A stretch of 64,000 nt of DNA. It comes from Entrophospora sp. SA101 (lineage: Eukaryota; Glomeromycota; Glomeromycetes; Entrophosporales; Entrophosporaceae). Below are positions 27,629 through 47,469 of this stretch, piece by piece. The notes beneath the pieces were generated by a model, which saw only the letters and a list, made by a program, of their open reading frames with translations, was not told the origin of the DNA and made no database searches. The position numbers were made by a program, and so were the translations under genes. Position 1 is the stretch's first letter. Every line of letters starts with the position of its first letter. The stretch lies in contig CAUDNR010000335.1 in the NCBI GenBank assembly GCA_958430865.1, positions 1 through 64,000 on the forward strand, given 5' to 3'.

Positions 27629-28131
27629 TATAATCATGATATCATCATTATTACAACTGTGTCCTACTATTTTGAATGAAATAATGGTCTAGGCCCCCTG
27701 ACCCATGGCTCAATTTCATATTTTTTATTGGTTTTTCTATACATAATAATATTTTAGAGATTGGAATCAACTATTTGACTATTTTAGTCAACTAATAAAT
27801 TTTTTTTTTTTTGATCAACCCAAATAGCTAAATAGTGATTAAAAATAGTCAATTAAATCATGTGGCGGAAATTGGTCATTCTTGTGATATAATAGAGTGG
27901 TGATCTGCAACATATAGTAAATTTTCAAGTCACTTGATATTATATAATAATATGTAAACTCGATAAGTTGGTCATATGGGGGTGAGCTCATATGACTGAC
28001 TTATCAAAGTAAACTGACTTAGAGAGTTTATATATGCAATTTAAAAATGAATTTGAAACCACCAAACTTATTGAATCAATTTTAATGCCAATTTAAAAGT
28101 GTTATAAAATCAATACTGTTTTTTTTAAATG
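27629..28131. other. Intergenic, left flank of element copy 1
   Basis: AT-rich. ACTATTTGACTATTTTAGTC and its near-complements between 27765 and 27870 form a weak palindrome. No gene seen. Confidence 0.35.
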
Positions 28132-28295
28132 GGGCATACTGCAACAAAACCAGACAAAGTGAACATTGGTATTACCAAGAATTTCAGGGTTCAAAATTTA
28201 GTCATTTCATAATGTGATTATAATTAACAGTTTATAATATCCCATTTGTTATCTTAAGTGATATATAGAACTATTCCTGTATAAAAATAGTTAAG
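28132..28295 (+). repeat. Terminal repeat of element copy 1 (left end)
   Basis: A 164-bp terminus starting GGGGCATACTGCAACAAAAC and ending just before an inward ATG. The same sequence in reverse orientation forms 42729-42892 and 47309-47454, with roughly 80-90% identity by eye. Internal landmarks CAGACAAAGTGAACATTGG, AGAATTTCAGGG and GTATAAAAATAGTTAA are shared by all. No unambiguous target-site duplication could be assigned. Confidence 0.85.
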
Positions 28296-28463
28296 ATGAA
28301 ACTCATTTACATTAGGTCTACTATGGAACCCAGGAATTATAGCACCATTAGAAGTATTTTGAAGAAAGAACAAGGTGAGAAAATTGCTCCTTATGTTTTC
28401 AAATTAAGTGATACTCAAGCACTTGAAACTTATTTAGGGAAAGAAAAGAGATGGAAATTTAAA
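28296..28463 (+). pseudogene. Small terminal-module protein, truncated (copy 1)
   Basis: Begins MKLIYIRSTMEPRNYSTIRS and matches the 88-aa version at 27043 for about 45 residues, then goes out of frame (YLGKRKEMEI, stop). The basic tail is lost. It reads inward directly from the terminal repeat. Confidence 0.6.
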
Positions 28464-28561
28464 TAGAAAGGAAAATAATAAGCAATAAATGAACCTTAAC
28501 ATCAACTCATGATAAACCAAGAAAGAAAAGAAGACTGGCAGAATAAACAATCAAATCATTA

Positions 28562-31500
28562 TTAATCATCATCTTCATCATCCTCTTCTTCTAGTTCAGA
28601 GGGAGCATTTCATCATTGGAAAAGGGTTTTTCTTTTGAGAATAGCTCAAATAGTTCCTGCGAATAACAAGAGTAAACCAAGAAAGGATAACCAAGCAGCT
28701 GGGTTATTAGTTCTTCAGAATCCTTCTTCTTTGGAAGTAGGTTTGCTTTCAGTAGCTTTTTGTTTAGCATAACTATGGTTAATTCCTGCGAGTTTTTCGA
28801 AATAGTATTTTTTAATTCCTGCTTCAGTTGGACTAGCTACATCCCCATAGAGGTTCCAATCTAAGTTTTTAGTTTGGTCTGCTGGATTCCGATCAGCTTT
28901 CATTTCAGTTTCAATTTCTCCTTTCTTAGCACTGTTAGTTTTGAGATGGAAATCAGCGATTGCTCCAATTACATGTTGAGGAGGTAAAGTAAAGAAATCA
29001 GTTTAGTTTATCTTGTTCAGCAGTAGCATCATCAGGAAAAGAAGGGAGTCCTTTTTTATCTTTTAAGTAAGTTTTGAGGTGAATAAAGAAAGGCCCAACA
29101 TCATCCAAATCATTCATGATATTTCCAATCTTTTCTAATTGACCTTCATCTTTTTTAAAGAGCTTTTTATCACCATAATTTTTTCATTCTTGAACTAAAG
29201 AAGTAGTAATATCAGCATCAATCTTGAAAACTGACTGAAGATTTTCACTTCTTAATTCTGGTTCAGTTAAGTAATTGTTAATCACTAATAATTCTGTTTC
29301 TTCTTCTGGACTAAGACCAATGGTTTGCTGAGCATTATTTAACTCACTTTTTAGTAAATCAAAATAAGTTATAATGCTTTTTGAGGTTAGGTTTCTTCCT
29401 TCTTTTTTTTCTCAATTATTTAGTCTTTCTTGAAAACTAGTACCTAAACCTTGTCAAGTGCTATAAGTAGGAAGTTGAGCATTTTGAATAGTTTCTAATT
29501 GTTCTGCTTTAGTGAGATATCCTTTTTCAGTAGCCATAAGGGGAGTTTCTAATTTGCCCTCATTTTCTAAATCAGTTAAGAAGTAAATCAAAGTTCTAAT
29601 GGCAATTGTTTCTTGATAAGTGATAATAACATTTACATCACTTGGATTAGTTAGTTTATCTCCTAAATGTTTAAGTTGAGTTCGTAAATGATCAATCCTT
29701 CCAGTTTCGAGGGCTTTGATTTGATTTTGGATTTGGATTAGTTTTTGTTCTTTGTCAGCTTTTTGAAGACTAATTTTAGTTAACTCACTTCTTTTTTTTC
29801 CTAATTCCGCATGAATGCTTTCTAAACCTACTCGTTTATCAGCAGTTATCATGTTTCATTTGTCTCACAAATTGATTGTTTCACCAGAAACTAAGTCTTC
29901 TAATTTACCTTTATCAGGAAGTAATCACTTCGAAACTTCTTGGTGGTGAACATACTCAAGTTTTCTAGTTTCTAACTCTTTAAGAGTTAAGCCTTTTGCA
30001 TCAGTTCTAAACTTTGCATAGCCTCTTTTCATGGTTTGAAGTGCTACTTCTACAGCAATTTTCCCTCACTCTTTTTGAAATTTATCAATTTCCTTCTTGT
30101 CAAATATAGGATTTCCGTGGGCATCTCTTGAATTTTTGATTAAATCGCGAACATGTTTTTGATAATTATTCAAATGCAACATGATAGCCACATGTTTCGA
30201 ACCTGCTGATTTCACAAGTTTATCCTCGTAAACACTAATTTTACAAATTTTTTCTAAATCGACTCCCTTTTCATCTAGCACTTCACAATATGCACTAAAA
30301 TTAATAGCATCATCTTTGTTGTAAACTTGTCAAAAGAATTCAGGGATTTGGCCATTAGCCCAAGTTAAGAGTTTTTCTTCAGCAAGAAAGGGAGCTTCAA
30401 GAATACTTAACTTTCCCCCATCCGTAACATAACTCTTTGTAATAATACTGGCATCTGCTCCTCGCCAATACACTTTAAAAGGAGTATCAATACTCTTATC
30501 CGTATCATTAAACTGCAAACAACTCTTTTCACCTTTTTTTAAGAAAGGACTATTTTTTCATTCACTAGGTTTATTTTTAGGAAAGAGAGCATGCATGATA
30601 CAAAAGACATCACTTATACGAAATATTTCTTTTTTTACTTCTTCTACTTTTTCACTTTTAATTAAATTCATCACATGTGAAAAACCTCAACTAACCGCAT
30701 CATCAGACACAAAGTGACCCATTCTATTCTGCAATCCACCATTTGAAAAAGTAATATCTTTTCGTTCTACAAACCGATTAAAAGCATCTTTAAACTCTTT
30801 CTTTTGGTTGGCAGTTAAGTGAGTGCAAGTAGAAGAACCAATATAAGCAAAAAGTTTATCTTTATCTATATTCTTAAGAATTGTTCAAATTTGACCTGGT
30901 AAATCACTTTCTAAATAAAGCGGATGAGTAAAAGGTTTAGAATTTCCATTATATCCCATTTGAATAACTGATGCATAACGGTCAACTGTTTCTGGTATAT
31001 CAGCTCTATATTGCAAGTCACTATTTATTTTACCAATTTCAAGCATACAATCAAGAAACTTACGACCAGTTCCACCAGGTGCTAAATCATCTTTTAACTT
31101 TTGAACAATAGTAGAAATCTTTTTCTCTAACTCAGTTTGTTCTTGAAGTATTTGTTCGTTATATTTTTTCTCTAACTCTTCAACTTCCTTTTCTGTTTTT
31201 TCTTCTTCTTCTGATACTTTTGCAAAAGTGATTAATGCTTCCTTTAATTTTAAATCCAAAGTTTTATTGTTTTTTCTAAATAAAACTCTTTGGTATTCCT
31301 GCACCATTTTATCAACTCTTCCTTCCTCATTTTCATCTTTTTCATTAACTAATTGGTAAGCAATGGAGTTATTTCTCCTTTCTGCCATTAAGGAAATTAA
31401 TAACTTATTACCATCATTACTAAGAACATCCACACTTTGTTCAATTTTTAAATTAGTTTCCGCTTTTTTACAATCATTTAATAATTCAGCCGTATCCTGG

Positions 31501-31646
31501 AGAAGAGAAACATCCAAAGTACCATTAGGAGTTAAAAGAGAACTATCAAAGATTTCTTTTTCTTGATCAGTAAGTTTACCGCCATGATAGTTAAGGTATT
31601 CCCTTGCTTTTTCGATTGTATCGATATCATTTTTATTGAATGTCAT
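28562..31646 (-). CDS. Large UGA=Trp-coded protein with C-terminal membrane helix (one frameshift)
   Basis: From ATG 31646 the frame is interrupted only by UGA, never UAA or UAG, down to about 29000. After one frameshift near 28998 it continues to TAA TAA at 28564. With UGA as Trp the product is about 1,030 residues with 15 UGA and at least four UGG codons; no introns. Examples of Trp contexts are PEFF-W-QVYNK, NL-W-DK-W-NMI and LFQ-WW-NAPSE. Residues about 125-190 form a Glu/Lys coiled coil; a second coiled coil follows about 620-690. Near the C-terminus AAWLSFLGLLLLFAGTI is a membrane helix followed by a basic stop-transfer (LKRK) and an acidic tail (LEEEDDEDDD). A Shine-Dalgarno-like AGGAAG and TATAAT boxes precede the ATG. 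This is mollicute-style coding. Function not recognised. It occupies the position that coiled-coil and zinc-finger genes hold in copies 2 and 3. Confidence 0.8.
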
Positions 31647-31653
31647 GATTTTA

Positions 31654-31683
31654 CTTCCTATATTATATTTTACCTATATTATA
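31654..31683 (-). promoter_or_regulatory. Bacterial-type promoter and ribosome binding site
   Basis: Upstream of ATG 31646 on the minus strand are two direct repeats of AAAATATAATATAGG, each containing a perfect -10 hexamer TATAAT (31678-31683 and 31662-31667), and AGGAAG (31654-31659), a Shine-Dalgarno-like site ending about 7 nt before the ATG. AT richness makes TATAAT common by chance, so the combination matters more than either part. Confidence 0.5.
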
Positions 31684-31772
31684 TTTTAATATTAATATCA
31701 TTAAAAGATTAAATATAAAGAATTTAATAAAAACTAATAAAGTAATAAAATTTGCAGTTGACTGAAATATTT

Positions 31773-32462
31773 TTATTCAATATCAGTATAGATTGGTTTG
31801 GGACAAGTGATATCTTTGTATTCATCTTTCACAAATGGACGAATATTCTGGTAAAGATATTCTTGCCTTTTGTAATCCAAAGGAGGTGGTGTCAATACTA
31901 AAATAGATAAAGCTTTAATTTCTTCAAAAATATCTGTTTTTTTGGTTTTCAATAAATTGAATTCAGTAAAAGGTCCATTAGCAACTTCTTGAACTTTCAC
32001 TGTACCAAGATTAGTTGCTTCAAAAAGAAAATGTTGATACTTTTGTAAACCATTTAGTTTCTTAAAATAAATTCTCAAAATAGCTTTAATATCTAAATAT
32101 TGAAAACCTCTTCCACCTTCATAACATTGAGCTTTATTCAATCTAGCTGGGCTAGACTTTTTTACCACCTCAACCACATGATCTAGACAATCTACTCTGG
32201 TTCTTCTATAGAGTTTTTTAATCATCCCAAAATTACCATCACATTTGAATTTGGTATGTCCAGGAATCATGAAATTCAATTCAATACTTTTATAATAACC
32301 ACTCCATATAAGAAGAAGCATATATTTATCATCTGAAACATCTATTATACATGACCTAGTTTTAAAATAGTTATCTTGGTTATCTCATTGAATTGTTCCT
32401 TGGTCAAGATTAACTGTGCATCCTGTAATAGATTCATCTTGTTTACTATGGGTTACTAAAAT
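31773..32462 (-). pseudogene. Transposase C-terminal fragment fused to an unrelated segment (copy 1)
   Basis: The distal 170 residues (IELNFMIPGHTKFKCDGNFG to CPKPIYTDIE) are clearly homologous to the C-terminal third of the transposase at 39086-40854, about 80% identical by eye. The upstream 60 residues (VTHSKQDESITGCTVNLDQG then TIQ-UGA-DNQDNYFKTRS) do not match that transposase. The junction lies near 32310. One UGA (32385-32387) is read through in frame. Upstream frames continue to about 32590 with small frame changes. A deletion joined two element genes, so no functional transposase remains here. Confidence 0.65.
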
Positions 32463-32599
32463 TTATGAATAGGACTATCCTTTATTTCATCAATGGGACA
32501 TCTATTGTGTGCATTAACTATAATTTGTTGTTCAATGGCATCAACAACATCTATATAATTTGTAGTTGGGTTTTTAATATTATTTTCTGATTAATCTGT

Positions 32600-33748
32600 C
32601 ACTACTTTATACAATCATCATTATCATTTCCTTCTTCCATTTTTATAAAAGAATTGATTGAAAGTTTTTTAATGAAAAATGTAAGGGTAAAAAAATAAAT
32701 TCGTGCATTAATTTAAAATTAAGTGTACGTTCCCAGAAGACTCCAGATTAGGTAAAAAAATAACTGATGATGATGATAATAATAATAATAATAATAAGAT
32801 TTCAATTTTGCTTAATATTAATATTTTCCTAATACTAATTATAATATTGCTGGAAAATTATAAAGTTGTTTGTTTACACAGAAGTAAAAATGGATGGATT
32901 TAACATGAATAATGCCATTATCTGGAGTTGTCATATGCAAAGAAACCCTTTTCAAAGTGTTGTGTGTGCGAGTTTTAATCATTCCTATTTATAACGTCAG
33001 ATGAAAACTTATCATAAAAAGCAATCGCCAACACCTCCAATTTTGGCAAGTTTCCTTTTGCTGCCAAATGAAATATTTTGGAATGTCTTTCCTCGCAATT
33101 GAAGAAACCTACTAATCTTTTAAGACATTTACATTCTTTGAAAATTCCTATCACTGTTGCTAGAGAAATATCAAATTTTGGGGCGTATCTGTATAGAAGG
33201 TGGTGATTTCGAAGAGTTTCATTTGGATTTTGGGGAATTTAAAGTTTCATAAATTGACAAAAAAAAACTTTGTTATTATCTTTTGTTAATGATTTGCAAT
33301 CTTCATTTAAAGTATTAGGATTCACAAGATCCTAATAATAATGCATTAGAGAAATTTAATCATTGATTGTCACTGAAAATATTATAAATAGAGCAAGTAG
33401 ATTTCGGTGATATTGAACCTTATGAAATGGAATTTACTGCTTTGTTAGAATAATATAGAATAATAAATAACATTGGATATGAAGACTAGAATGATTTTAT
33501 AATTAAAAATGATTTATTATTTATGATTTATTTAGATTAAATCTCACAAATGTTTTGTTGTCACCACCACCAAAGCAAGAAAAGAGGCAATACTTTCAAT
33601 TGCATATAATATTTAATTAAAAAATGTGTTTACATCAATCACTTAAATTATTATATTAAAATTAGCAATAATAAATTTTATTTCAAATTAAAAAATTAAA
33701 TTCATAAAGTAAAAAACATCCATCAACAACATACATATAAAAAGAAAA
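32600..33748. other. Intergenic, transition from element DNA to fungal DNA
   Basis: No gene recognised. There is no copy of the GGGGCAT terminus on this side of element copy 1, so its inner boundary is undefined. ATA/ATG triplet repeat at 32767-32797. Confidence 0.4.
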
Positions 33749-36642
33749 CTACAATTTTTCTAATTCATTTATTTTTTCACATAAATGATTAGTCTCAGCT
33801 ACATAATCAATTTCTGAAATAGCCACCAAGTTATTGTTTACAACAGTCTTCTCCTACAAAATAAAATGATCCCACTTATATTTATATTTATTTATTTATA
33901 TAATTATTATAATAATTGCTATAGTATTTAATACTTACATTAAAAGTTTTTAGCTGAGTACAAACTTTAAATATGTAAGACTCCCACAATTGATTTTTTA
34001 TATGATTTTCATAACCATAAGGATCAAAATCCTAATAAAATGTATATATATATATATATATATTAGAAAATTAAAAATATTAATTAATGAATAGAAAAAA
34101 ATATGATATAAATAAACAATTACTCTAAGTTTACGGAAATCATCAGCAGGCATGCCCAGAATTAATGCAGCTGTTTCATCAAAACAATTCATCCATGCAC
34201 TATCTGAATGATCAGTTATACGAATTGGTAAAATATATCTATAACAAACAAACAAAACAAACAACATCAATAAATATTAATATTTAAAAAAAATTTTCCA
34301 TTAGCAAGTAACATTATACCTGTAGGTTGGAGTCTCAAATGATTTTGAACATCTATCACAACTCCAATTATTGCCACTTCCAAATACTTTCTTTTTGCAA
34401 GAACTGCATGAAGGATAAATAAGTTCTTTGCCTTTATTATGTATGTAAGCAACAGTAGCCCTAACAGTGAAATAGTCAGGCTTGGAAATAAATATATAGA
34501 TGAAGTTAAAGCTAGATGCATAAAAACAATAAACACATATATAAATTCATGTAAAACTATTACTTTTTCTTTACGTCCTAAAGTTTTATCAGATTTAATT
34601 TCTTCTAATGACTTTTGAGCCTCTTTTATGTTGATTGATCGACTTAATGAATTGAATTCTAACTGAGATCCACCTGTACTATACCTAAAAACAATAATAT
34701 GAACACATTTTTAATTAATTTAAAAATTATTATATATAATCAATCAATTCATTAGCCAATCAATAAATTAATAATCAGTAATACCATTCTGATAACTCAG
34801 TTGCTTCTGGTAATGAAGGATTTGTAATCAGGACAGTGCTGTTTGTTGTTGATAAACCTTTACCTGAGGGGATAAAAATAATTAATCACTTGTAAATAAA
34901 TAAAGATATGGTACATGTATAAAATATTATTAAAGATTTTGAACCTCTAAAATCACTAACACGAGCAGATTTAATAATAATTACTGAGCCAATAGTACAA
35001 TCCAAATTATCAATGAGATTCCTCCATATTGTCACCGTAATCTCATAACCACTTTTATCGACTATATCAATTTCTTGTTTTCGAAGCTACAAATAATTTA
35101 ACACCAAAATAAAAGAAAATAAATCAATTGATGAACTTTCAAAAATTAACAAAAGAAACTTTTTAACAAAATATATATATTAAAGATAAATACTGTTTTT
35201 TGATCATTTTTTGTTGAAACATCAAGGATTTCATGAATATATCTAACAACACCAATAACATCTATTAAAATAATATGTATAATATTAATAAAAAAATAAA
35301 AAAATAAAAAACCATTATTAGAAATCACAATTACCAATATGAGTGTCTTTATCAATGCTAAGCAGTTTTTCAAATGTCACAAATTTGAAACTCAATTCAC
35401 TATCCAAGGAATCAGTATCAGTGCACTATAAAAGAAAAAGGAAAAAGATTTTTTTAAAAAATTAATGTTATGGGGTGTAAAAACCTATGTTTACATACCA
35501 GTCTAACTTCACTGCTATTTTCAAAGTGTAATTCATATTTATGACCTTGATAAATTGGATTTTTGTTTAGAGCTACTTTCAACTTGGTCATATAATATGC
35601 CTATTTGAAATTAAATAATTAATAATTGATATGTATTATTAATAAAAAGGGTAATTGAATGAAAATTTATACTTTGTTCTCCTTGAGTAGTTCATAAAAT
35701 TTATCCACACAAAATGTAAATGCTGTAGCTCTGATCTCTCCCTAATTAGATTAATTGTTAGTAATTGGAGAGGAATGATGGTAATAATAAATGAGTTTCT
35801 AATATCCTGATGAATAATTGAATTAAAATTGTAACTCGTACTGATTTATCCATTAAAGTAACATTGAAAAGTTTTCCTTGTCCACGATTGTTAGACCACT
35901 GTTTAATATCTGATTTATATACTACAAATGCTTTAATAGTGAAACTGAACAAATAATAAATAATAAAATATATAATTTTAATGAAGCCATAAAATTAATG
36001 TTCTCAAAAAATAATTTAATATACATACTGAGTATTAAGGGGATTTATTTGCTTGATTTCTAATATAGCTGAAGAAGGCACTGGTCTACTAAAATCACTT
36101 TAATTTTAAAAATTTTAAGCAAAAAAAAGATTATTATACCAAAATTTATTGATCAATACCTATTATTATTATTATTATTATTGTTGTTGTTATTATTGTT
36201 ATTATTATTATTAGTTTGGCTTTGGAAGGAAGGGTTAGCAGGAAAGTTATAAGGATGTGGTGGGTTCTGTTGTGGCATCTGTGATTGAAATGGTTGTGGT
36301 GCAATGTTTTGAGAGAATTGGGATGTTTGTGGTGCATAGTTTTGTTGTAGTTGCTGGGGAGGTAAAGCTTGTGAGTACTGTCGAGGAGGCAACATTTGAA
36401 AGTATTCAATGAGCCGTTCCGCGCCATATTTTCGTCTCATCTCCTCCAGGACGCTCACGTCGTTCTCTTCTATAATTATAGTTCTGTTGTATGTGAAATC
36501 AAAATTATGTGAATTTGAAATTAACATGTGAACTAGAGTGACAACAAGTGGCGGGCGATGACCACCATCCTTAAAACACTTACCCAGAGAAATCAGCTAT
36601 TTGCTTTTCTTTGGTTCTTTTGTTGTTACTTCTTGATGACAT
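33749..36642 (-). CDS. Replication protein A large subunit-like (RPA1/RFA1 family), multi-exon
   Basis: A minus-strand gene with about ten exons, ATG 36642, TAG 33749-33751. The first exon ([20 protein letters not shown]) is spliced at GTAAGT to [21 protein letters not shown] Gln/Pro/Asn-rich linker follows. Then come DBD-A ([39 protein letters not shown]), DBD-B ([50 protein letters not shown] then WRNLID) and DBD-C with its zinc ribbon [10 protein letters not shown]...CDRCSKSF and [20 protein letters not shown]. Splice sites keep frame where checked. The usual N-terminal RPA70N protein-interaction domain is absent. Single-stranded-DNA binding in the nucleus is expected; it may be a paralogue rather than the essential subunit. 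It is flanked on both sides by UGA-code element DNA. Confidence 0.88.
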
Positions 36643-37039
36643 AGTTTATTGTTATGAAAAAAAAAAGTTTGTCATATGATTGACACGTACACTAATTATT
36701 TATCCTTGGTTTTTTTTTTGGTAGGACAGACGCGAATTGATTTTTTTTTTTCTTGGAAAAACAATTTATTTTCTGACAGAGTCCAAGGTGACAAAACGTG
36801 AACGTTGTTGTTTAGTTTGGCTTGGTTTGGGTCTCCTAAAGAAGAAGTGTTAATAACTAACCAGAGGTACTTTTTTTTACTTGTATTGATTGATATTTTT
36901 ATTTTGGTTATTATAAACATTTTAATTGGAAATCAAAACATGGGAGCAGATCTTGTTGGGTAATTACAAGATTTTCATTGATAATATTGATAATATTTTG
37001 TTTTTCATAATCAATAATATTAATAATAACATTATTATT
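36643..37039. other. RPA1-like upstream region
   Basis: Likely promoter region of the RPA1-like gene. Long T runs and ATT repeats, no distinct factor site recognised. Confidence 0.3.
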
Positions 37040-37510
37040 ATTATAATTGCAAGATGTCAAGGCAGCACATTGTTGAATATGAAACATTTCGATATGCAAC
37101 ATTTGATTACAGGAAATTGGCAGGTGTTGAAGCACACACGCTACCTTGAACACATTACAGTCATTCTCGTCTTCCTCGTGCACACAAGGCTAATCTGACC
37201 AAGATTATCCCGATGATACAACAATGCTACCGAATTCCAGGGGGGGGTAACATGGCCCTGGAATTTACTGAGAATGCATCAATTGTCAATGACGCTTTCA
37301 CTAATCTTTCCAGATCAGAGATGGCTGCTGGCATGCTAGCCGAAAAGTCGCCTGCAATGATCCTACTCTAGGGTAAGGATGGCTCTGTGACCAAGTTGCA
37401 ACTCTGCTGATGAATATTAAGAGAATCTGCAGCTCGTTTCAAGCTCCAGGAGGTCACAATTCAGAGCAGGGTTGGTGGCCCTGAAATTGCATTTGGACCC
37501 TGATGTTAAG
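37040..37510 (+). pseudogene. Decayed gene fragment, higher GC
   Basis: Composition shifts to near-balanced GC. Plus-strand frames read EYETFRYATFDYRKLAGVEA (37066 on), a stop, then after a frame change LTKIIPMIQQCYRIPGGGNM, ALEFTENASIVNDAFTNLSR and SEMAAGMLAEKSPAMILL before TAG, followed by GKDGSVTKLQLC. Two frame changes and several stops show it is dead. Family not recognised; probably a dispersed repeat gene or processed copy. Confidence 0.45.
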
Positions 37511-38129
37511 AGGAAAGTTGTAAAATAGTGTTTATTTTGTATAATCATTTTCATAAATGCTCTGTTTTTTTTGATATAACCAATTTATAATTTTGGGTAG
37601 GGGACTAGGTGGGCTTTTGCCCAATCAGTCCTCTGTCCTGTAGGTTAAAATTATCACACAATTATATACATCTTTGTCAGCAATATGGCCAACAAGAAAA
37701 AAGGGTTCGGATTTTGGTATGTTTTGTTTAATCATTTTCCCAAATTTTCTGCTTCTCTTTAATTTTTATCTGACCAACTGAATTTGTTATTTTAGTAAAT
37801 GGGGGTAGGGTTGTTGGTGAGTAGGCATGCCACTGACAAGACAGGGGATGCCTTTGGGATATACCAGCCAAACTCATAGAAAGGGATCTTTTGTCCAGAC
37901 TTAGGGTCACATGGATGTTAAGCACAGAAAATGTACACTATCAATGTATATTTTTTTCAACAAAATAAACATTTAAATAATTAATTGTTAAATATTAATA
38001 CTTTTCTTTTCATAAAAATTACAGCAACCCTCCAGAGTTGCAGAATTTTCAAGCCAGTCTTAACACCAACTTTGTACTGGAAGGGTATAACACAAAGTAA
38101 TCATCACATGAATGTCAACTCATCAGCAA
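37511..38129. other. Repeat-like, no gene
   Basis: Contains a GC-richer block GGGACTAGGTGGGCTTTTGC (37600) that looks like the 3' part of a dispersed repeat, then AT-rich sequence. No supported frame. Confidence 0.3.
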
Positions 38130-38310
38130 ACAATGCTCCATATGGTAACAGCCCAGCCTGGCCTGAGGGGAAGATAAGGGAATGTTTTGTCCAAAGCCTT
38201 CCAACATGTGGGGTGCTTCAACTGTGGAGAAAACTCCATGGTGCTGAAGCGTGTGAAAGCACCTGACTGCATGTTTGTGACAGGAAATTTCAATTAAATC
38301 TGACACCTGT
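38130..38310 (+). pseudogene. Fragment of a dispersed decayed gene family (copy 1)
   Basis: CCAACATGTGGGGTGCTTCA, then GGAGAAAACTCCATGG, GAAGCGTGTGAAAG and TGCATGTTTGTGACAGGAAA match, with scattered differences, the minus-strand segment at 48800-48930. In one frame both end in a CMFV-x-GNF-x stop. Stops and frame changes break both copies. The unit is unidentified. Confidence 0.45.
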
Positions 38311-39085
38311 AATTAACATCAGATTTATTATTCATAAGGAACCATGATTGATAATCAGGAAAAGTAATTTATTATTGTGAATCCCAGAGATCTGGGTAGA
38401 CACGCATTATTAAAAGTTTCATTTATGCATGGCCTTGGTGTTATTACTACTTGGGTGATGCAATTGTTTGTTATGTCAATTATAGCATCAAATGTATTGA
38501 ATAATAATCATGACCATCATGAATATTTGATGGATGGAGGCATTCAGATACAAGGAAATGATAAGTAGCTAAGTCATGTTTGCTTTATTAAAGATATATA
38601 TAATTATATTTAAAAAGTAATTATTCCACTCTTGCAATGAAAGGTATTATTCTGAAATCATTTGTTTATTTAGCATTAATGATTGAATCAATCACACAGG
38701 TGGTAGTCAATTTAAATGGCATTCATTTTTTTAAATGAAATGATATTATTTTAAATGTATAAAATTTTTTTAAAAGATGTTTTTATAATAATGATTTTTA
38801 ATATTGTAAATCTTTTTTGATAAATCTAAATTATTATTAATATTAATAAAAAAATCAGAAACATGAAATTTTTGCACATAATTATTTTTCATGGGGCCAA
38901 TTGACCAAATTTTTCAATTTCTCTTCATAAATTATTGAACAACCATATTTTTTAAATCATTTACTTAAACCTATTCCACTGATTCATCTAAGATTTAATT
39001 CCATTCATATACTTCAATTTTAAACCAATTATAAAAAAACTTACAAAGTGAACATAAAATTATATATATAGGGATAAGTGTATAT
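38311..39085. other. Intergenic, left flank of transposase copy 2
   Basis: A 63-codon frame at 38377-38568 (MNPRDLGRHALLKVSFMHGL...) lacks support. No copy of the GGGGCAT terminus is present before the transposase start, apart from a short ACAAAGTGAACAT match at 39043-39055. Confidence 0.35.
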
Positions 39086-40857
39086 ATGAAAAATAATAAT
39101 AAATATAATGGTTCTAATGAATATCAAAAAGCAATTGATTTTTTAGAAAAAGGTTGTGATTGTGGTTGCTTTTCCAGAATTCCCAAAGAACAATTTGCAG
39201 AATTAAGGGAATCCTTTCAGGCTCTCACTAAACCAGAACAAGACATTTTTTTAATGGCCCAGATTAAAGCAATGGATGGTGGATCAATAAGCACTAGCAG
39301 ACGCCTTAAAAAGAAAACTAGATCCAATAAAAAGACTTTCTATCACTGAAATCACAATACATTACTTTGTCAAGAAACTTATCTCAATATGTTAGGAATT
39401 GGTAGAACTAATTTTGAAAATATTAGAAATCATCTGATAAACAATGGTCTTTTACCAAGAATTCATGGTAATATTAAAAGAATGCCTCAATGGAAAACTA
39501 AAATGGTGATTGACAAAGGTGTTGCTGAAATTGTAAAGAATTTTCTGGAAAATTATGCAGAAGTCCATGGATTACCAAGTCCAGGAAGAAGTATCAACAG
39601 AATAACTCAATCAATTGTATTCTTACCAACTGAAATGAGTTATAAATCAGTGCACAGAGATTTTTTAGCTAGTCTAGAAAAAGATAGCAAGTTGAAATTA
39701 TTAAAATATGATGTTTTCAGAAAATTATGATATCAATTGACACCAGAAATTCAAATTATGAGTCCCAGGACTGATTTGTGTGATACTTGTCAGCATTTTA
39801 GAGATGTTTTACATTATAATGCTCACCAAGAAGGAGAAGCTAAAGAATTACTCAAAAGATTTAAAGAACATCTATCTAAGGCAAGATTAGAAAGAAATTA
39901 TTATAATAAAAACACCAAATTAGCAGAAGAACAAAGAAAACTAGTTGACCAAAATTATTTTCAAGGTAAATCACAATATTGCAGCATTGATTCTACTACT
40001 CATTATAGTTATGATTGAGCCCAAAATGTCTGTGTACCCCATTCAGATCAACAAGTAAGTAAAATCTATTACCTTAGTCCATGTAAAGTTCATTTATTTG
40101 GTGTTCAAGATGAAGCAGTAAGGGAACAAATCAATTATGTTCTTAATGAAAATGAATTATAGGAAAAGGGCCCAATGGCACACTTAGCATGATTTTTGAT
40201 GGAATTAAAAAATTGAATAAAGGTGAAAAGCATTTAAAGATTACTTGTGATAATGCTAGAGGACAAAATAAAGATAATGTAACAATTTGGTTTTACTTGT
40301 ATTTAATAATTTGTGGTTATTATGAAAGTGTTGAATTAAATTTCATGATTCCTGGGCACACCAAATTCAAATGTGATGGTAGTTTTGGATTGATTAAAAA
40401 ACTTTATAGAAAAACAAGAGTAGATTGTGTAGATCATCTGGTTGATGTGGTGAAAAGATCTAGTCCAGCAGGATTGAATAAAGCACAATGTTATGAAGAT
40501 GGAAAAGGTTTTCAATACTTAGATATTAAAGTAATTTTGGGAATTTATTTTAAGAAATTACCAAGTATACAGAAATACCAACATTTTCTTTTTGAAGCAT
40601 CTAATCTTGGTACAGTAAAAGTTCAAGAAGTTGCTAATGGACCTTTTGTTGAGTTAAATTTATTGAAAACCAAGAAAGCAGATATCTTTGAAGAAATTAG
40701 AGCTTTATCTATTTTAGTGATAACAACACCTCCTTTGGATTACAAAAGGCAAGAATATCTTTACCAGAATATTCATCTATTTGTTAGAGATGAATTCAAA
40801 GATATTACTTGCCCAAACCAATCTATACTGGCAATGAATAAATATTTAGGATAAAAT
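39086..40857 (+). pseudogene. RNase-H-like transposase in UGA=Trp code (copy 2, one frameshift)
   Basis: About 588 residues. The frame is open from ATG 39086 except for UGA at 39347, 39728 and 40016, and a single-base deletion near 40158 (NENE then IGKGPNGTLSMIFDG). The N-terminus has a CDCGCF motif and a helix-turn-helix-like segment (LGIGRTNFENIRNHLINNGL). The middle reads PRTDLCDTCQHFRDVLHYN, then SIDSTTHYSYD-W-AQNV. The catalytic part reads KITCDNARGQNKD and FMIPGHTKFKCDGSFGLIKK. These blocks match, from memory, the DUF7869-type transposase-like proteins common in eukaryotic transposons, where the aligned positions LWRQ and FDFAQQ are aromatic, supporting UGA as Trp. It heads the gene order transposase, coiled-coil, zinc finger, terminal module. 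Confidence 0.75.
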
Positions 40858-40970
40858 CACCTCTAATGACTTCATCACTTGTTAATTTATCATCACTGTC
40901 ATTAAGTTTAATAAGTTTAATCTTTGTTAGCTTTTCCCACCTTTAAAGTAAAAAAGTACTAAAATAATTT

Positions 40971-41010
40971 ATATACTTAATATGCCCTTATGAAAAGGAT
41001 ATAAGTATAT
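40971..41010. terminator. Conserved palindrome between transposase and coiled-coil gene (copy 2)
   Basis: ATATACTTA (40971-40979) is perfectly complementary to TAAGTATAT (41002-41010), with an inner CCTT/AAGG. It lies in the intergenic gap before ATG 41036. The corresponding gap in copy 3 carries a different but positionally equivalent 10/10 palindrome, so the structure is maintained. Terminator or regulatory hairpin by position; inference. Confidence 0.45.
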
Positions 41011-41035
41011 TAAAAGAATAAAAAAAAGCTAAACC

Positions 41036-41807
41036 ATGGTAAACATCATAGAAACACAACAAAAAGCAGATAAAGAATTGCTAAACAAAATTGAAGATTT
41101 AGAAAAGCAACTAATTGAAAAAGAAGAAAACCTTAAACTAACAATTTGAAATGCAGTTGACAATGCTGTTAAAGAATATAATGTTTTAACTTTAAAAACC
41201 TTACAAAGATTTACTTGACCTGAAAATGGTCGAGTAAATTATCCAGAAAGGAATTTAACTGAATTTGGAAAAGTAGTTTTCAATGATGAATTCACTCCTG
41301 AGAATGTTATTGAAAGTTTTGCTAATAAAGCATGATATCATGAGCATTTTTTTGAACTTTATTTTAAAAAAGGAATTAGAAGAAAAGAATGCTATTTTAG
41401 AAAAAGAAAATGCTGAGTTAGAGAAAACTAATCAAGAGTTAAAAGAAAAACAAGAGGAATTGGAAGCAAGAGTAGAAGAATTAGATGATGAAGTGTGAAT
41501 GGAGTGAGAAGAGGCTGAAAAAGCACTAAATAAAGCTATGGAATGGAGAAAATGACAAATATTTGAAACTGTGTTGAAGCATGATGCTGCAATGGGCAAA
41601 CTTCAAGACCGAATAAATTTATTGGAAAATAATTTGTTGGCTAAAGATCAAAAAATAAATTGAAGAGATTATTTAGAAAGCAAAGAATTACCAGCTTTAC
41701 CAAAACAACAAAAAGAAAACAGATTACACAGGCTCAAAAAATTAGTAATCAGAGTAAAAGAAAAGATTAAGAAGTTCCAAACTTTCATTGTTCAGAAAAG
41801 TGAGTAA
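41036..41807 (+). pseudogene. Coiled-coil protein, UGA=Trp code (copy 2, one frameshift)
   Basis: Starts MVNIIETQQKADKELLNKIE, closely matching the intact gene at 45301. Seven in-frame UGA codons are read as Trp (for example KLTI-W-NAVDN, RFT-W-PENGR, ANKA-W-YHEHF). A frameshift near 41370, in an A-rich run, breaks it. After that the frame gives a long Glu/Lys coiled coil (EKENAELEKTNQELKEKQEE) and ends near LKKLVIRVKEKIKKFQT at TAA 41805-41807. It lies 6 bp upstream of the zinc-finger gene, an operon-like spacing. Function unknown. Confidence 0.65.
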
Positions 41808-41813
41808 TTTAAT

Positions 41814-42394
41814 ATGAGATTAGAATATAGAGTTCTAGAAATAACCCAGGGAGATGAGCAAGAGTGTATCTTCTGTTTTCTAGATTTTGATGGCCCAACT
41901 CTCCTTAATTTTGATACTGCTCCTGCTACTCATCAAATGGTGGCTCATAATACTCCTGATGGTTATTCTGACATTGTCTTTATCTGTGGTGAATGTAAAA
42001 ACGATTATGATAATAATACACTTCCATGATGTGAGAAATGTGGTAGGTTAAAAAGGAATAGAAACAGATGTTTTTGTAGTCATTTAAAAGCTAAACCAAC
42101 TAAACCATTTTCTGACAAAGAACTACTTTCACAAGCTTTCAGTTTTTGCCTAGAAAATAAAACTAGAGAACTAGAAAAAGAGTTATCAATTACCAAAGAA
42201 GACTTAAAAATTGAAAGAGAAGAAGTAGCCAAATTTCAAGAAAAATCTGAAGAGTGAAGTAAAAAACAGAAACAAGAGTTATAGATAAGATAAAAAGTTT
42301 AGAAGAAAACAGGAAATTAAAAGATCAACAGAATGGTCAACTAACTGCTCAAATTGAAGTCAAGGAGACTAAAGATGATCTTGATTGAAAATAA
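41814..42394 (+). pseudogene. Zinc-finger plus coiled-coil protein, UGA=Trp code (copy 2, frameshifted)
   Basis: Starts MRLEYRVLEITQGDEQECIF. Cys pairs CIFC, CGEC and CEKC...CFC suggest two zinc-binding sites within the first 95 residues, followed by a coiled coil (ENKTRELEKELSITKEDLKI). UGA codons at 42027, 42255 and 42386 are read as Trp. TAG at 42282 comes from a small deletion; the next frame continues to TAA 42392-42394 and matches the end of the copy-3 gene (GQLTAQIEVK). Homologous throughout to 46322-46981. DNA or nucleic-acid binding is a guess. Confidence 0.6.
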
Positions 42395-42473
42395 AAAAGT
42401 AATTGAGGAAATTTCCCTCTGTATAAATTGAAATTCATTCCAACCATCAAAGAAAATGGTATTTATTTTCCTT

Positions 42474-42728
42474 TTAAAGATTTTTGCTTTTTATTAGGTA
42501 ATAATGCATTATCATGATGCTTTCTTTTCCAACAATTATTATTTTTCTTTCTTCTTGGTAAATTTCATAAGTAATCCTTTCTTTTCTTAGATAAGCTTCC
42601 AATGTCTGAGTATCATTTATTTTAAAAACATAAGGAGCAATTTTTTCACCTTGTTCTTTCTTCAAAATACTTCTGATAGTACTATAATTCTTGGGTTCCA
42701 TGGTAGACCTAATGTAAATGAGTTTCAT
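42474..42728 (-). pseudogene. Small terminal-module protein (copy 2, frameshifted tail)
   Basis: Starts MKLIYIRSTMEPKNYSTIRS and reads inward from the terminal repeat. It matches the 88-aa version through EERKI, then shifts frame so the basic tail (RKRKHHDD...) is replaced by IIIVGKESIMIMHYY. At DNA level the lost tail is still recognisable. Confidence 0.6.
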
Positions 42729-42892
42729 ATCAACTATTTTTATGCAGGGGTCAGTTCTATATCAACCAAAATATAAAATGGGTCATTATAAAACTGTTAA
42801 TTATAATTGCATTAAAGATGACTAAATTTTGATCCCTGAAATTCTTGATAATACCAATGTTCACTTTGTCTGATTTTGTTGCAGCATGCCCC
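42729..42892 (-). repeat. Terminal repeat of element copy 2 (right end)
   Basis: A 164-bp terminus, inverted relative to 28132-28295 and the same length. Read on the minus strand it begins GGGGCATGCTGCAACAAAAT. Together with the left end at 28132 it bounds a 14,761-bp segment that contains the fungal RPA1-like gene. Confidence 0.85.
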
Positions 42893-43030
42893 ATATATAA
42901 TAAAAAATGATAATAATAATTTTGACCAATTGTAGAATTGATTACTACCCCTGAATTATAAATTTGTCAAATAAAATTATTATAATATTAATATATAAAT
43001 GCAATATAATTTTGAAGAAAAAAAATTTTT

Positions 43031-43981
43031 TTGAACAATAAAAATATTATGGAACCAATAACAAATAATTATACAACAGTTGCGGCCTCTAATGAACAAG
43101 CATTTTCACAACATGGAACTTCATCAGAATCCTCAATGTTTAAAAATAATAACGACAACAATAACAATAACGGTAATGGTGATTCAGCAGCACAAAAGAT
43201 AACTGCAGTAGAAGATTCCATTGATTCTTCATCAGCAACAATAAACATTGATGAAAATAATCTTGAAACTGTTGAAGAGGATCCATTTCTATTGGTTTCA
43301 CTTAGAAAAACTGCCACACCTACTAGACCTAAATGTGTCAATATATTATATTTATTTGCCATACTTGATTTATCTCTGGTAACTTTATATATGATCTATT
43401 CACTTATTAAACATAATGGTGATCTAAAATCATATCAATGGGGCCTAGTAATATTATGTTTCATTAGATTTATAACAGTTATGTGCATTGCATCATCAAA
43501 CAAGATAAGAGAATTACGTTCGATATTGGCAGGTGTATGCTGTGTAAGTGATGTTAATTCATGAATATATTATATAATTAATTTATTAATTTAATAATTT
43601 TTTTAACAATAATTTTTTCTTTTTGAACAGTTTTCTTCATTGTATATAATATTTAAGGTAAATTATTTAATCCAATTGAAGAAGAACTTGGGAACAATGC
43701 AAATCATATTTTTGATTTTATCGTTTGCATTAAGCCAAATACACTGGATTGCCTATGTTATTGTAACAACTGACAGTAAGCGTAGGGCTGAATTGTTAAA
43801 ATATAATAATATATATTTTGAAGAAGATGTCAATGTCGTTAATGACAACAATGACAATATTAATAATGGGGGTGACAACAACAACGACAACGACAACAAT
43901 GATGTTGATAACAATGAAACGGAAAATTTAACCAAACCACAACCTTCTTATGGTTCAATTAAAAATGTCAATTTAAATTAA
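43031..43981 (+). CDS. Four-helix membrane protein, one intron, function unknown
   Basis: Two exons: 43031-43543, intron 43544-43630 (GTAAGT...GAACAG), 43631-43981, giving about 287 residues. Residues 1-90 are Asn/Ser-rich and cytosolic-looking. Four membrane helices follow: VNILYLFAILDLSLVTLYMI, WGLVILCFIRFITVMCIA, SILAGVCC joined across the intron to FSSLYIIFKV, and MQIIFLILSFALSQIHWIAY. The C-terminus is Asp/Asn-rich and ends with a tyrosine motif PQPSYGSIKNV, reminiscent of sorting motifs in vacuolar membrane proteins. It uses TGG for Trp. Splicing shows it is a fungal nuclear gene; it lies 138 bp from the terminus of element copy 2. Alternative start at ATG 43049. No family recognised. 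Confidence 0.75.
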
Positions 43982-45199
43982 ATCCATGTGCTTTTGTAAT
44001 ATTAAAATATGGAATAACGCAGGCTGTACAATAGACAAGTTTACGTGTTCGTATAATCACTGTAATTGTGCATTTGAGATTCAAGGAGTGTGCTGTACAC
44101 AATTTTCGTGCACATAATGTATTAACGATCAATTTTATTAATTATAAATTTCAGGAAATGTATAACATGTAAATATCTTTTTAATTTTTTTAATTATTTA
44201 ATAAATTATTTATTTAATTACAAACAAAACAAAAAAGAATTTTTACGTAAATATTACTACCATTAGCGAAATTTTACCATCAATCCCATTTTCTTTTCAA
44301 CTAACTAATGAGACAACTTAGGTCCACATGTAAAGTCCTTGACTATTTAAATCACCATTAATAATCATTAATAAAATTTTAACCTGGTCATTTTTCTTTA
44401 TCAATGATATTTCATATAGTTTGTCTATAATAAAATTTATTCCATAGTAAATTTATCTACTTGATTAGATGGTAAAGATTATGTGATAATGACGAATCAC
44501 AATCAAAATTGATTTCTTTAGATTTTTTGATTCTATCATAAAATAAAAGTACATTATAATTGTTCTTTATTGACAAAACCGTCATGATTATCGATATAAA
44601 TGGTAATGACAATGATGGTGAGTAGTATAATAAATAAAGGTTGTTTGAGTTGGTAGGGAAGAAGATTCTTTGTTGTATCATCTAAAGGTTATACTCAAAA
44701 TGATAGATAATATTATCATATATAACAGTAAGAACACTCTCAATTTCAAAATCTTTTTATCCATGCATCGAAAAATTATTTTTGAAGAAAATTTATATTA
44801 CAAAATCAAGGTATTTATTAACTTTACTTATATGTAAGGTTTTCTGTTACTATACAATCTTTCCCCAATTCTAATTTTGTAATATTTGTAAATTTACTAC
44901 ACAAAATACTTTATCATCATCATTTTATCAATTATTCTTTCCCTTTTCCCTTGTAAAGATATAATACATAATTGATTGATTTAAAGAGAAAGTGTAGTTG
45001 TAATTAATTAATTAATTAATAATTTTTATCTGAACACAAATGTAACTAAGAAAAATAAAGAAATTCAATGAATCTATAATTTAATCAAAGATATTTATTT
45101 GTATTACTTTAAAATAGTTATTATTGCAGTCAGGATTATTACCAAATTTGGAAATCGAATCTAGAAAAATTGGAACTCCTTTGTCGATCAATTCATATG
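43982..45199. other. Intergenic up to the assembly gap
   Basis: AT-rich, no supported gene. Short AATT tandem repeats near 45002-45020. The sequence stops abruptly at the N run. Confidence 0.4.
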
Positions 45200-45209
45200 N
45201 NNNNNNNNN
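45200..45209. other. Assembly gap (10 N)
   Basis: Ten undetermined bases. To the left is fungal intergenic sequence, to the right is the interior of element copy 3, already past its transposase position. The join is a scaffolding inference, not read sequence. Confidence 0.99.
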
Positions 45210-45244
45210 TAGAAAATTTAAAAATAAACTAATAAAATAATTAT

Positions 45245-45285
45245 ATACTTAATAATGCTTTTATAAAAAGAAAGATATTAAGTAT
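45245..45285. terminator. Conserved palindrome upstream of coiled-coil gene (copy 3)
   Basis: ATACTTAATA (45245-45254) is perfectly complementary to TATTAAGTAT (45276-45285), at the same place relative to the following ATG as the palindrome at 40971-41010. Loop sequence and lengths differ, so the pairing is conserved better than the sequence between. Confidence 0.45.
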
Positions 45286-45300
45286 TCATTAACAAAAATC

Positions 45301-46308
45301 ATGGTAAACATTATAAATGAACAACAACAAGCAAATAAAGAATTATTAAACAAAATTGAAACATTGAAAAAGCAATTATCCAATAAAGAACAAGAGATTA
45401 CTGAATTAAAAAATCTAGGAGAAGTAAGTGAAGAAGAGGAAGTTGAATTTAAGCAAGAAGCAACAGAGAGAATTCACCAAATATTGGTAGATATGAGGGA
45501 AAGATTTCCTCATTGTAGCAAGAATATTGAACAAGATCTAAGAAAATTGATTAGCAAGCCATTAAGAAATCAATTTATGAAGGTTTGTTTTCAACATAGC
45601 CTTATGCATGACTATAAATGGGAAGGTAAAGAAAATCTAGAAAAAGTTGTTGAAAGAATTATTACAGATCATTTTGAAGGCACTGAGCTAGCCACTGAAT
45701 TGAAAAAAGATTGGAAACTATGAAATCAAAGAGCTCATATTTTTTCTCGAATAGAAGAAGGAGGTGAAATTTTTGGCAAACCAGCTAAGGATATAATTCT
45801 TAAAGATATTATAGGAAGCAAGATTGAACGAATTAAAGATTTAGAGGCAGAGGTAGAAAAATTGGAAGGTGAAGTGCAAGTGGAAAGAGAACAAATTAAG
45901 GAAATCTTAGCAGTTGGTGAAAAATGGAGTAAAGCTCAAGCAGAAGATATAAAAGAAAAAAACAAGAAACTCGATAGTGCTAGTAAAAAGATTTCTCATC
46001 TAGAAGCCCGAGTTGAAAAGTTGGAAGAAGAATCAAGTCAAAAGAGCAAAAAAATAGAAAAACTAAGCAAGCAATTAACTGATAGTGAAACACAAAATGA
46101 AAATTTGAGGAATTTGATCGACTTAGATAATAAACCTTTACCCGCCTTACCTATAGAAGAAGAAGACAAGACTTCAGTTAAACAGAGCATATTTAAGCAG
46201 TTAAAAACAAAAGCAAAAGTTAAGATTCAACATTTACAAAAGTTAATCAAAAAGGAAAAATCTCACAACCAAGAAATGATTGCTCGAGTAGAGGTTAAGT
46301 CTAAATAA
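45301..46308 (+). CDS. Coiled-coil protein, UGA=Trp code (copy 3, intact)
   Basis: 335 residues with a single UGA (45721-45723) read as Trp in KKDWKL-W-NQRAHIFSRIE; otherwise fully open. The N-terminus MVNIINEQQQANKELLNKIE is a coiled coil, the middle (about 50-160) is a mixed globular segment with RERFPHCSKNIEQDLRKLI, and residues 175-270 form a long Glu/Lys coiled coil. A PLPALPIEEED linker precedes a basic C-terminus (KQLKTKAKVKIQHLQKLIKK). No signal peptide or membrane segment. It ends 13 bp before the zinc-finger gene. Homologous to the broken gene at 41036. Function unknown; scaffold or DNA-associated role is possible. Confidence 0.75.
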
Positions 46309-46321
46309 CAAGTAAATTGCA

Positions 46322-46981
46322 ATGAGAGAACTGGAATACACAGTTTTAGAATTGGAAAAAGAAAACAAAAAGACTTGTGATTTCTGCTCTAAGTTTGAAA
46401 ACAAAAATAATAAATCCATTCATCAAATAAGAGCTCGTAGCAAAGTAACTGGGGAATGAATTTCAGATGACATGGTTTGTGAAAGGTGTGAAGAAAAGTA
46501 TTGAAATGATGAATTGTTAAAGTGTAATAGATGTGGTAGATTGCAAACCAAGTTAGATTTTGATATTACTACTGGTAAGAATGTTTGCTACTGTATTAGA
46601 AACAATGAGGATTTGGAAGAGAAGGAACTCCCTCTCTTACCTGATGAAGAAGTAAGTCAGTCTGCTTTTTATGAAAGGCAAATAAACTCCTTACAAGAAC
46701 AACTAAACAAGACTGAAGAAGCATTAGAAATCGAAAGGGAAGAAGTAGTTAAGTTTCAGGAGAAATCTGAAGAATGAAGCAAGAGGCAAAAACAAGAATT
46801 GCTAGATAGGATTAAACAATTAGAAGCAGAAAATGAAAAACTAAAAGGCTTAACTAATCAAGAATTAATAAAAGAAATCAACAAGTTAAAAGTTCAATTA
46901 GCACAATTACAACAACAAAATGGTCAATTAGTTGCTCAAATCGAAGTTAAAAAATGACCTTGATTGAAAATAAGAAAGTAA
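46322..46981 (+). CDS. Zinc-finger plus coiled-coil protein, UGA=Trp code (copy 3, intact)
   Basis: 219 residues ending at TAA 46979-46981. Five in-frame UGA codons (46457, 46502, 46775, 46955, 46961) are read as Trp; no UAA or UAG interrupts. Cys pairs CDFC, CERC and CNRC...CYC in the first 95 residues form two likely zinc sites. An acidic Leu/Pro linker (ELPLLPDEEVS) and a coiled coil to the C-terminus (LQEQLNKTEEALEIEREEVV, KLKVQLAQLQQQNGQL) follow. Homologous to 41814-42394. The only UGA-free stretch long enough to be called by the standard code is a middle piece (46514-46777), so standard gene callers will miss the gene. Confidence 0.75.
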
Positions 46982-47042
46982 TTTAAAGAAATTTTCTTCT
47001 GTATAAATTGAAATTAATTCCAACTATCAAAGAAAATGGTAT

Positions 47043-47308
47043 TTATTTTCCTTCTGATGATTTTTGCTTTTTATTAGGTAATAATGCATCATCATGATGC
47101 TTTCTTTTTTTAGCATTTATTATTTTTCTTTCTTCTTGGTAAATTTCATAAGTGATCCTTTCTTTTCTTAGATAAGCTTCCAGTGTTTGAGTGTCATTTA
47201 TTTTAAAAATATAAGGAGCAATTTTTTCACCTTGTTCCTTCTTCAAAATACTTCTAATGGTGCTATAATTCTTGGGTTCATAGTAGATCTGATATAAATG
47301 AGTTTCAT
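47043..47308 (-). pseudogene. Small terminal-module protein (copy 3, one-base deletion)
   Basis: ATG 47308 reads MKLIYIRST, then a missing G (CTATGAACCC instead of CTATGGAACCC in copy 2) shifts the frame. From ATG 47246 the rest is intact (KKEQGEKIAPYIFKINDTQT to the NKKQKSSEGK tail). Reads inward from the terminal repeat, as in the other copies. Confidence 0.65.
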
Positions 47309-47454
47309 CTTAACTATTTTTATACAGGGATAGTTCTATATATCACTTAAGATAACAAATGGAAGATTTTAATAATCACGTTACTAAATTTTGATCCCTG
47401 AAATTCTTGGTAATACCAATGTTCACTTTGTCTGGTTTTGTTGCAGTATACCCC
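47309..47454 (-). repeat. Terminal repeat of element copy 3 (right end)
   Basis: A 146-bp terminus; on the minus strand it begins GGGGTATACTGCAACAAAAC. It differs from the 164-bp versions by about 18 bp missing around the AACAGTTTATAAT segment. It is followed to the right by AAATGATAATTTG. Confidence 0.85.
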
Positions 47455-47469
47455 AAATGATAATTTGTA

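Follow-up and report, generated by a model that had tools for sequence, protein, structure and literature searches.

The window, the 64-kb stretch of DNA analysed here, is the start of a 246-kb scaffold (C313) in an assembly of 101 Mb and 2,123 contigs. It reads as the DNA of an arbuscular mycorrhizal (AM) fungus, because the named protein relatives of its central units come from Entrophospora, Ambispora, Geosiphon, Gigaspora, Diversispora and other AM fungi. We found that these three units are copies of a composite mobile element that is present at well over 1,000 places in the assembly and stands beside fungal genes, and that the proteins of this element are encoded with UGA as a codon for tryptophan.

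Layout of the element in the window

The three units and loci elsewhere share a common layout, in which a left end is followed by a DUF7869 protein of about 590 residues, by genes A and B or gene D, by gene C on the strand opposite to the other element genes, and by a right end (Table 1). The left end is about AAAACCTACAAAGTGAACATAAAATTATATA and the right end is TGGGGCATGCTGCAACAAAACCAGACAAAGTGAACATTGG. Of the copies in the window, unit 2 (39.0-42.9 kb) is preserved most fully, the transposase gene of unit 1 is broken off internally, and unit 3 sits to the right of a scaffold gap of 10 N (45200-45209) just left of its genes. For the cut-off element left of unit 1, the counterpart near 95 kb of the scaffold extends to a complete right end.

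Table 1. Parts of the element and neighbouring fungal genes in the window
Feature	Position	Strand	Remarks
TAF1-type DUF3591 domain	14933-15349	minus	Pfam match, PF12157
Right part of a cut-off element, gene C	26762-27059	minus	repeat family D1; open frame 26780-27103, MKLIYIRSTM...
Right end of unit 1, TGGGGCATACTGCAACAAAACCAGACAAAGTGAACATTGG	28130-28169	+	this end recurs at 9 places in 8 other loci
Gene C of unit 1, shortened	28296-28466	+	small basic protein
Gene D (unit 1)	28562-31673	minus	coiled-coil protein ending, judged by eye, in a membrane helix and an acidic tail
DUF7869 transposase gene, 3' part (unit 1)	31773-32302	minus	PF25273; 89% identical to 40313-40817; break at 32302
RPA1 C-terminal domain, two exons	34001-34546	minus	PF08646, E 4e-10 and 6e-14; between units 1 and 2
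Left end of unit 2	39035-39055	+	imperfect inverted match to right end, 18/21 vs 42857-42877
DUF7869 protein, probable transposase (unit 2)	39086-40854	+	PF25273; 100 relatives
Gene A of unit 2	41036-41807	+	coiled-coil protein; UGA within the frame and a single frameshift near 41.4 kb
Gene B of unit 2	41814-42394	+	coiled-coil and Cys-rich protein; UGA within the frame
Gene C of unit 2	42447-42730	minus	
Right end of unit 2	42857-42893	minus	
Spliced fungal membrane-protein-like gene	43051-43978	+	from open reading frames; directly adjoins unit 2, N-free junction
Gene A of unit 3	45301-46308	+	one UGA, three UGG
Gene B of unit 3	46322-46981	+	five UGA; at least 155 own-genome matches
Gene C of unit 3	47028-47315	minus	frame disrupted by frameshift
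Right end of unit 3	47419-47455	minus	

We infer that the DUF7869 protein is the transposase, PF25273 itself being a domain of unknown function. In unit 2 its first frame holds three UGA at tryptophan sites and is followed by a frameshift near 40.16 kb. A relative (P0129) matches DUF7869 with an E value of 5.5e-17, and the structure model of a transposase relative is poor (predicted local distance difference test score, pLDDT, 61.5), with zero PDB matches at E <= 0.001. Two public gene models extend the transposase by a further part: in the Ambispora model P0199 this part resembles gene D (E 8e-17, 31% identity across 167 columns), and in P0138 it is a coiled coil with weak resemblance to gene A (E 0.07). 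Gene D consists of 912 codons with 13 UGA, a frameshift near 28.97 kb and then four further UGA. It has at least 17 matches in its own genome, and the nine full-length rows hold 9-14 TGA each and zero TAA or TAG; of the 10 loci with gene D, 8 have gene C alongside, the locus in the window among them.

The right end is sharply conserved across the loci compared. The left-end motif is present in 28 of 30 transposase loci, and the left end as such is ambiguous, with 1-2 kb upstream common to part of the copies. Upstream of unit 2, a repeated GC-richer segment (36900-39030) recurs at roughly one in three of the 30 transposase loci; it may be the genuine left portion of the element or a separate repeat next to which the element tends to insert. 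In units 2 and 3 alike, a palindrome-like ATACTTA...TAAGTAT stretch, possibly a promoter or regulatory hairpin, lies ahead of the gene A start (40973-41010 and 45245-45286). By eye there was no clear target-site duplication at the element ends, a search with joined flanks found no empty site among the best 40 of 415 candidates scored, and the flank right of unit 2's right end gave only its self-match among the 45 matches listed.

UGA codons at tryptophan positions

The initial annotation had counted about 35 UGA codons in seven gene units of this region and had almost never seen TAA or TAG there, the exceptions lying at frameshifts. This observation holds: read with genetic code 4 (UGA as tryptophan), the named units contain 39 in-frame TGA summed over ten open segments, a few of them in overlapping or out-of-frame stretches, which makes the first count of about 35 reasonable, and TAA and TAG are confined to frame ends or frameshifts. 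The longest stretch free of TAA and TAG spans 912 codons with 13 TGA (28938-31673, minus strand). Chance is disfavoured, because in 100 first-order Markov simulations of the window the longest such stretch reached at most 225 codons with at most 12 TGA per stretch, so that it is the open length, not the number of TGA alone, that exceeds the simulations.

Aligned relatives carry tryptophan at these sites, in agreement with the reading first proposed for them. For gene B of unit 3 (46316-46981), tryptophan occurs at the five UGA sites in 11, 11, 34, 24 and 29 of 35 relatives, being confined to the closest relatives at the first two sites. At the three UGA sites of the transposase, the aligned residue is mostly tryptophan among the 100 relatives. 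Twelve of these 100 terminate exactly before UGA column 223 and six before column 319, compared with seven other exact end points that occur once each. Furthermore, 32 annotated AM-fungal proteins mostly skip the first and third UGA columns (96 and 319; 11 of 15 and 19 of 25 covered rows), the second being skipped in 6 of 20. Against a mean gap fraction of 0.185 in these proteins, the three columns rank 7th, 84th and 2nd of 340, the middle one thus not being exceptional. Deposited AM-fungal models (P0132, P0169, P0171, P0138 and others) often omit these UGA codons, probably by means of false introns. These comparisons show that UGA in the element genes stands for tryptophan and not for arginine.

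We then compared 31 transposase copies, that is 30 loci and unit 2 of the window; these are best-scoring matches, so intact copies are over-represented. The cut-off transposase of unit 1 is excluded from the 31-copy sets, its codons being included in the codon totals. Across five tryptophan columns the copies hold 90 TGA and no TAA or TAG. Two of these columns are TGA in all 31 copies, and the other three hold TGG and TGA in ratios of 23/8, 20/10 and 15/10 (with one further codon in the second of these and six in the third), which corresponds to at least 7, 6 and 7 changes between TGG and TGA on a star-like tree (20 of 28 inner branches unresolved). Outside the five columns, the codon totals contain 17 TAA, 2 TAG and 14 TGA. 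In the 17 copies without TAA or TAG in their aligned codons, 53 of 55 TGA fall on tryptophan columns; five of these copies (L026, L032, L037, L039, L042) align in at least two pieces owing to frameshifts or gaps, and in a single-frame reading L032 has TAA/TAG and L017 has one TAA. A is the preferred third base in pairs of codons ending in A or G (AAA 79%, GAA 90%, TGA 63%), so UGA and UGG act roughly as one extra synonymous pair.

The protein encoded behind the UGA codons is under purifying selection. Among the 17 copies (median synonymous divergence, dS, 0.38), the ratio of nonsynonymous to synonymous divergence (dN/dS) is 0.13 upstream of the first fixed UGA, 0.11 from there to the second and 0.17 beyond it, and the DUF7869 domain by itself gives 0.13; with all 31 copies included, the four values are 0.13, 0.12, 0.26 and 0.22. 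Judged by this pattern of sequence evolution, which shows a constrained region behind two invariant UGAs that would otherwise drift, the transposase has been translated through its UGA codons.

These data bear on the explanation that the units are standard-code genes undergoing ordinary nonsense decay, by CpG deamination or a process resembling repeat-induced point mutation (RIP). Such events do occur: some gene D copies show CGA to TGA decay (columns 304, 404, 664 and 730; the gene D codon table omits the partial loci L012-L014), and transposase copies with TAA, TAG and frameshifts, together with the 14 TGA outside tryptophan columns, document decay after insertion. However, CpG loss makes TGA from CGA and not from TGG, while a C-to-T change in CpA gives TAG, and neither accounts for TGA that is concentrated at tryptophan columns with low dN/dS behind it. 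RIP signatures are moreover reported as undetected in Gigaspora margarita in the accessible part of PMC8647823. Relatives carrying UGG at the UGA sites had been named as the observation that would point to nonsense decay; what we found instead is that UGG and UGA alternate at the same tryptophan positions. Ordinary nonsense events are a minority in the copies, and we regard decay as an exceedingly improbable explanation of the whole.

Element copies among fungal genes

The initial annotation had also placed this mobile DNA inside fungal chromosomes, and the distribution of the element bears this out. Allowing at most 3 mismatches over 27 bases, the right end matches 1,213 places in the genome (595 + 618), the reversed control matching none, and the 100 places listed fall on 75 contigs. 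The transposase has at least 77 matches in its own genome (from the best 74 of 1,573 candidates scored). The element is dispersed and multicopy. On at least 12 contigs besides C313 (C2092, C1856, C1665, C1416, C1363, C2093, C185, C1739, C1289, C1398, C1452 and C1061), an element gene is accompanied by a kinase or reverse-transcriptase domain without in-frame stops, such domains being taken as fungal as a class and not gene by gene. In the window, the RPA1 exons lie between units 1 and 2 without any N, so that in the assembled sequence the element is joined to host genes. Several relatives of the transposase lie on independent Geosiphon contigs of 1.0-2.4 Mb; for comparison, the endobacterial assemblies of one survey reach at most 970 kb, as far as the available portion of PMC11423566 states.

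The neighbouring genes themselves, which had been recognised by translation, are real: Pfam matches identify the RPA1 and TAF1-type domains (Table 1), and a protein-tyrosine phosphatase is also among the fungal genes around the units. The spliced membrane-protein-like gene next to unit 2 gave nothing above cut-off in a Pfam search. The host nuclear code is standard, because only 9 of 146 kinase matches contain an in-frame TGA, and at least one of the nine lies on a bacterial contig. Reverse-transcriptase domains with a single in-frame TGA in an otherwise open frame occur on C480, C1807, C136, C1860 and other contigs, and the single TGA could be decay or another UGA-coded element.

Parts of the scaffold are repeated. 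A 26-kb block (window 1219-27056) recurs at C313:49387-75291 with 99.3% identity and in a third, partial copy at C313:89164-95472 with 99.8% identity; the copies are separated or followed by runs of N (13.3 kb and 5.1 kb or more). Contigs C1359 and C459 contain the same genes again with equal scores. This suggests assembly duplication. One tRNA gene, called Ser with anticodon TGA, is found per copy of the repeated block (11870-11954 and 60038-60122).

The N gaps, the near-identical blocks and the gene repeats on C1359 and C459 would fit an assembly chimera, or endobacterial contamination that was scaffolded into fungal DNA; the assembly does contain bacterial contigs, and chimeric fungal and endobacterial assemblies are reported in the portion of PMC11423566 drawn on here. 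Against this explanation, positions 1-45,199 are free of N and the units alternate there with fungal genes, there are 1,213 right ends, the 100 listed being spread over 75 contigs, the CpG content is unlike that of bacterial genes, and relatives sit on the megabase-sized Geosiphon contigs. Contamination is unlikely because of the 1,213 right ends and the contigs shared with genes lacking in-frame stops, and we consider a chimera or contamination very improbable.

Possible sources of the UGA reading

The assembly contains bacteria that read UGA. We found three rpoB-type genes with open stretches of 977-987 codons and 4-7 TGA each, as well as three tRNA genes with anticodon UCA, two of them on C792 and one on C1735, located beside other bacterial-type tRNAs or code-4 open reading frames. 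In its bacterial mode ARAGORN labels these tRNAs SeC, in its mitochondrial mode Stop/Trp; we read them as tRNA-Trp(UCA). In all, the anticodon-UCA pattern gave five hits, three of them real tRNAs and all three on bacterial contigs. Contigs with in-frame UGA that we assign to endobacteria are C2074, C555 and C1799 (L046-L048), C792 (L049/L050) and C1735 (L053). Because the three rpoB-type genes differ and C792 carries two diverged copies of the tRNA cluster, the data point to several kinds of bacteria, which may have been joined in a single contig. The bacteria are likely to be of Mollicutes type, a name that we take from their code and from the endobacteria already known in AM fungi and not from a phylogeny.

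Since UGA-reading endobacteria share the assembly with the element, its coding probably stems from a code of the Mollicutes type. We hypothesize that the element is translated in a Mollicutes-type endobacterium of the fungus, in which UGA means tryptophan, and that a transposase made there, or carried along with the DNA, would insert copies into the host nucleus. Under this hypothesis, the nuclear copies would be unable to make protein under the standard code, would decay through TAA or TAG, frameshifts and CpG loss, and would be moved, if at all, in trans by endobacterial protein. They would represent repeated samples of a diverse pool read in code 4, and such sampling fits the star-like tree of copies. 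An endobacterial translator is the simplest choice, with composition against it, and as an overall explanation we judge it evenly poised between right and wrong.

Several observations weigh against the endobacterial hypothesis. The composition of the element is unlike that of this assembly's endobacteria: CpG observed/expected is 0.07 in the transposase (0.076 in the consensus) with TpG/CpA at 1.26; the two measures are 0.84-1.22 and 0.80-1.00 for the bacterial frames, whereas fungal stretches give 0.35-0.76 and 1.18-1.32. Gene D is less depleted, with CpG at 0.30-0.60 and TpG/CpA at about 1.0. Element genes are absent from the five contigs with rpoB or tRNA(UCA) genes among the matches listed. 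Gene B has no relative in GTDB 220 or IMG/VR, gene D has none in IMG/VR, and a transposase relative had no match in IMG/VR, phages or plasmids, a GTDB search of the transposase not having been made. Endobacterial names do not appear among the protein relatives listed (one search giving the best 120 of 233), and gene D is weakly constrained (dN/dS 0.25-0.54), some of its UGAs being CGA to TGA decay. Of the link to Mollicutes that had been drawn at the outset, the part that stands is the presence of UGA-reading endobacteria in the assembly, whereas a direct endobacterial origin of the DNA is opposed by its fungal-like CpG content and by the lack of a copy among the listed bacterial-contig matches. 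CG methylation of transposons is documented in Rhizophagus (available part of PMC8647823). Because it is CpG-poor, as are methylated fungal transposons, the transposase lineage seems to have spent a long time in a methylated genome, with its coding kept under code 4.

Two mechanisms could reconcile these facts: the transposase could be provided by endobacteria, or the fungus could itself decode UGA as tryptophan. In the latter case the element would be a true Glomeromycotina nuclear transposon, read through efficient local recoding or a tryptophan tRNA that can decode UGA, while ordinary genes end at UGA. This would account for a composition that is CpG-poor and TpG/CpA-rich as in methylated fungal transposons, for the number of right ends, for purifying selection behind the UGAs, for the lack of a copy on bacterial contigs among the matches listed, and for the skipping of UGA columns 96 and 319 in AM-fungal gene models. 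However, up to 17 UGAs per gene would need near-complete reading as tryptophan, TGA is rare in the kinase matches, tRNA(UCA) was found on bacterial contigs only, in a search covering neither intron-bearing nor near-cognate tRNAs, and a tRNA borne by the element was sought and not found. We regard this mechanism as unlikely.

Another source in the hyphae is distinctly less probable still. UGA commonly means tryptophan in mitochondria, so the element could derive from mitochondria or mitochondrial plasmids; alternatively, it could come from a CpG-depleted endobacterium, or its phage, that is absent from the assembly, and some Mollicutes methylate CpG, which would explain the low CpG. Phage and IMG/VR collections contain no relative, though, and a mitochondrial context was not seen, no search having been aimed at one. 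Taking the endobacterial and the fungal mechanism together, we think it fairly probable that a nuclear transposon of AM fungi that is unreadable in the standard code persists by translation in another code, be it that of an endobacterium or one hidden in the fungus.

Among known systems, eukaryotic DNA transposons with DUF7869 share the domain and a high copy number with the element and may share its related short inverted ends, but use of UGA for tryptophan and the passenger genes A-D set it apart. Candidatus Moeniiplasma, the Mollicutes-related endobacteria, likewise reads UGA as tryptophan and has, beside the tRNA(UCA) genes, open reading frames for proteins with a C-terminal anchor and acidic tail, which the C-terminal helix and tail of gene D resemble (both by eye); the element differs in being CpG-poor and on fungal contigs. 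Nuclear inserts of mitochondrial or mitovirus sequence also place UGA-for-tryptophan DNA in a standard-code nucleus; these are dead fragments, whereas the element is amplified and selected for its protein. In Curculio weevils, Rickettsia genes are enclosed in Mavericks and bacterial DNA is thereby tied to and amplified by transposons (accessible text of PMC13419823), whereas here the transposase gene itself is written in another code. Gene transfers described in the part of PMC10507103 used here run from fungus to endobacterium, and according to the corresponding part of PMC5982333 the donors of bacterial genes in R. irregularis lie outside the known endobacteria. Our literature search, with most subscription journals outside its coverage, found no report of UGA-coded mobile DNA in fungal chromosomes, none of either mechanism proposed above, and no paper containing the term DUF7869.

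Transposons are thought to depend on host translation; if the proposed explanation is true, an endosymbiont would serve as translator for a parasite of its host's genome, or else a second reading of UGA would exist in the fungal nucleus. The finding bears on how often DNA moves from endobacteria to AM fungi, a direction that is unreported in the accessible parts of PMC10507103 and PMC5982333. It also carries a practical warning, as public AM-fungal gene models often skip these UGAs, and contamination screens for endobacteria may throw out real nuclear DNA.

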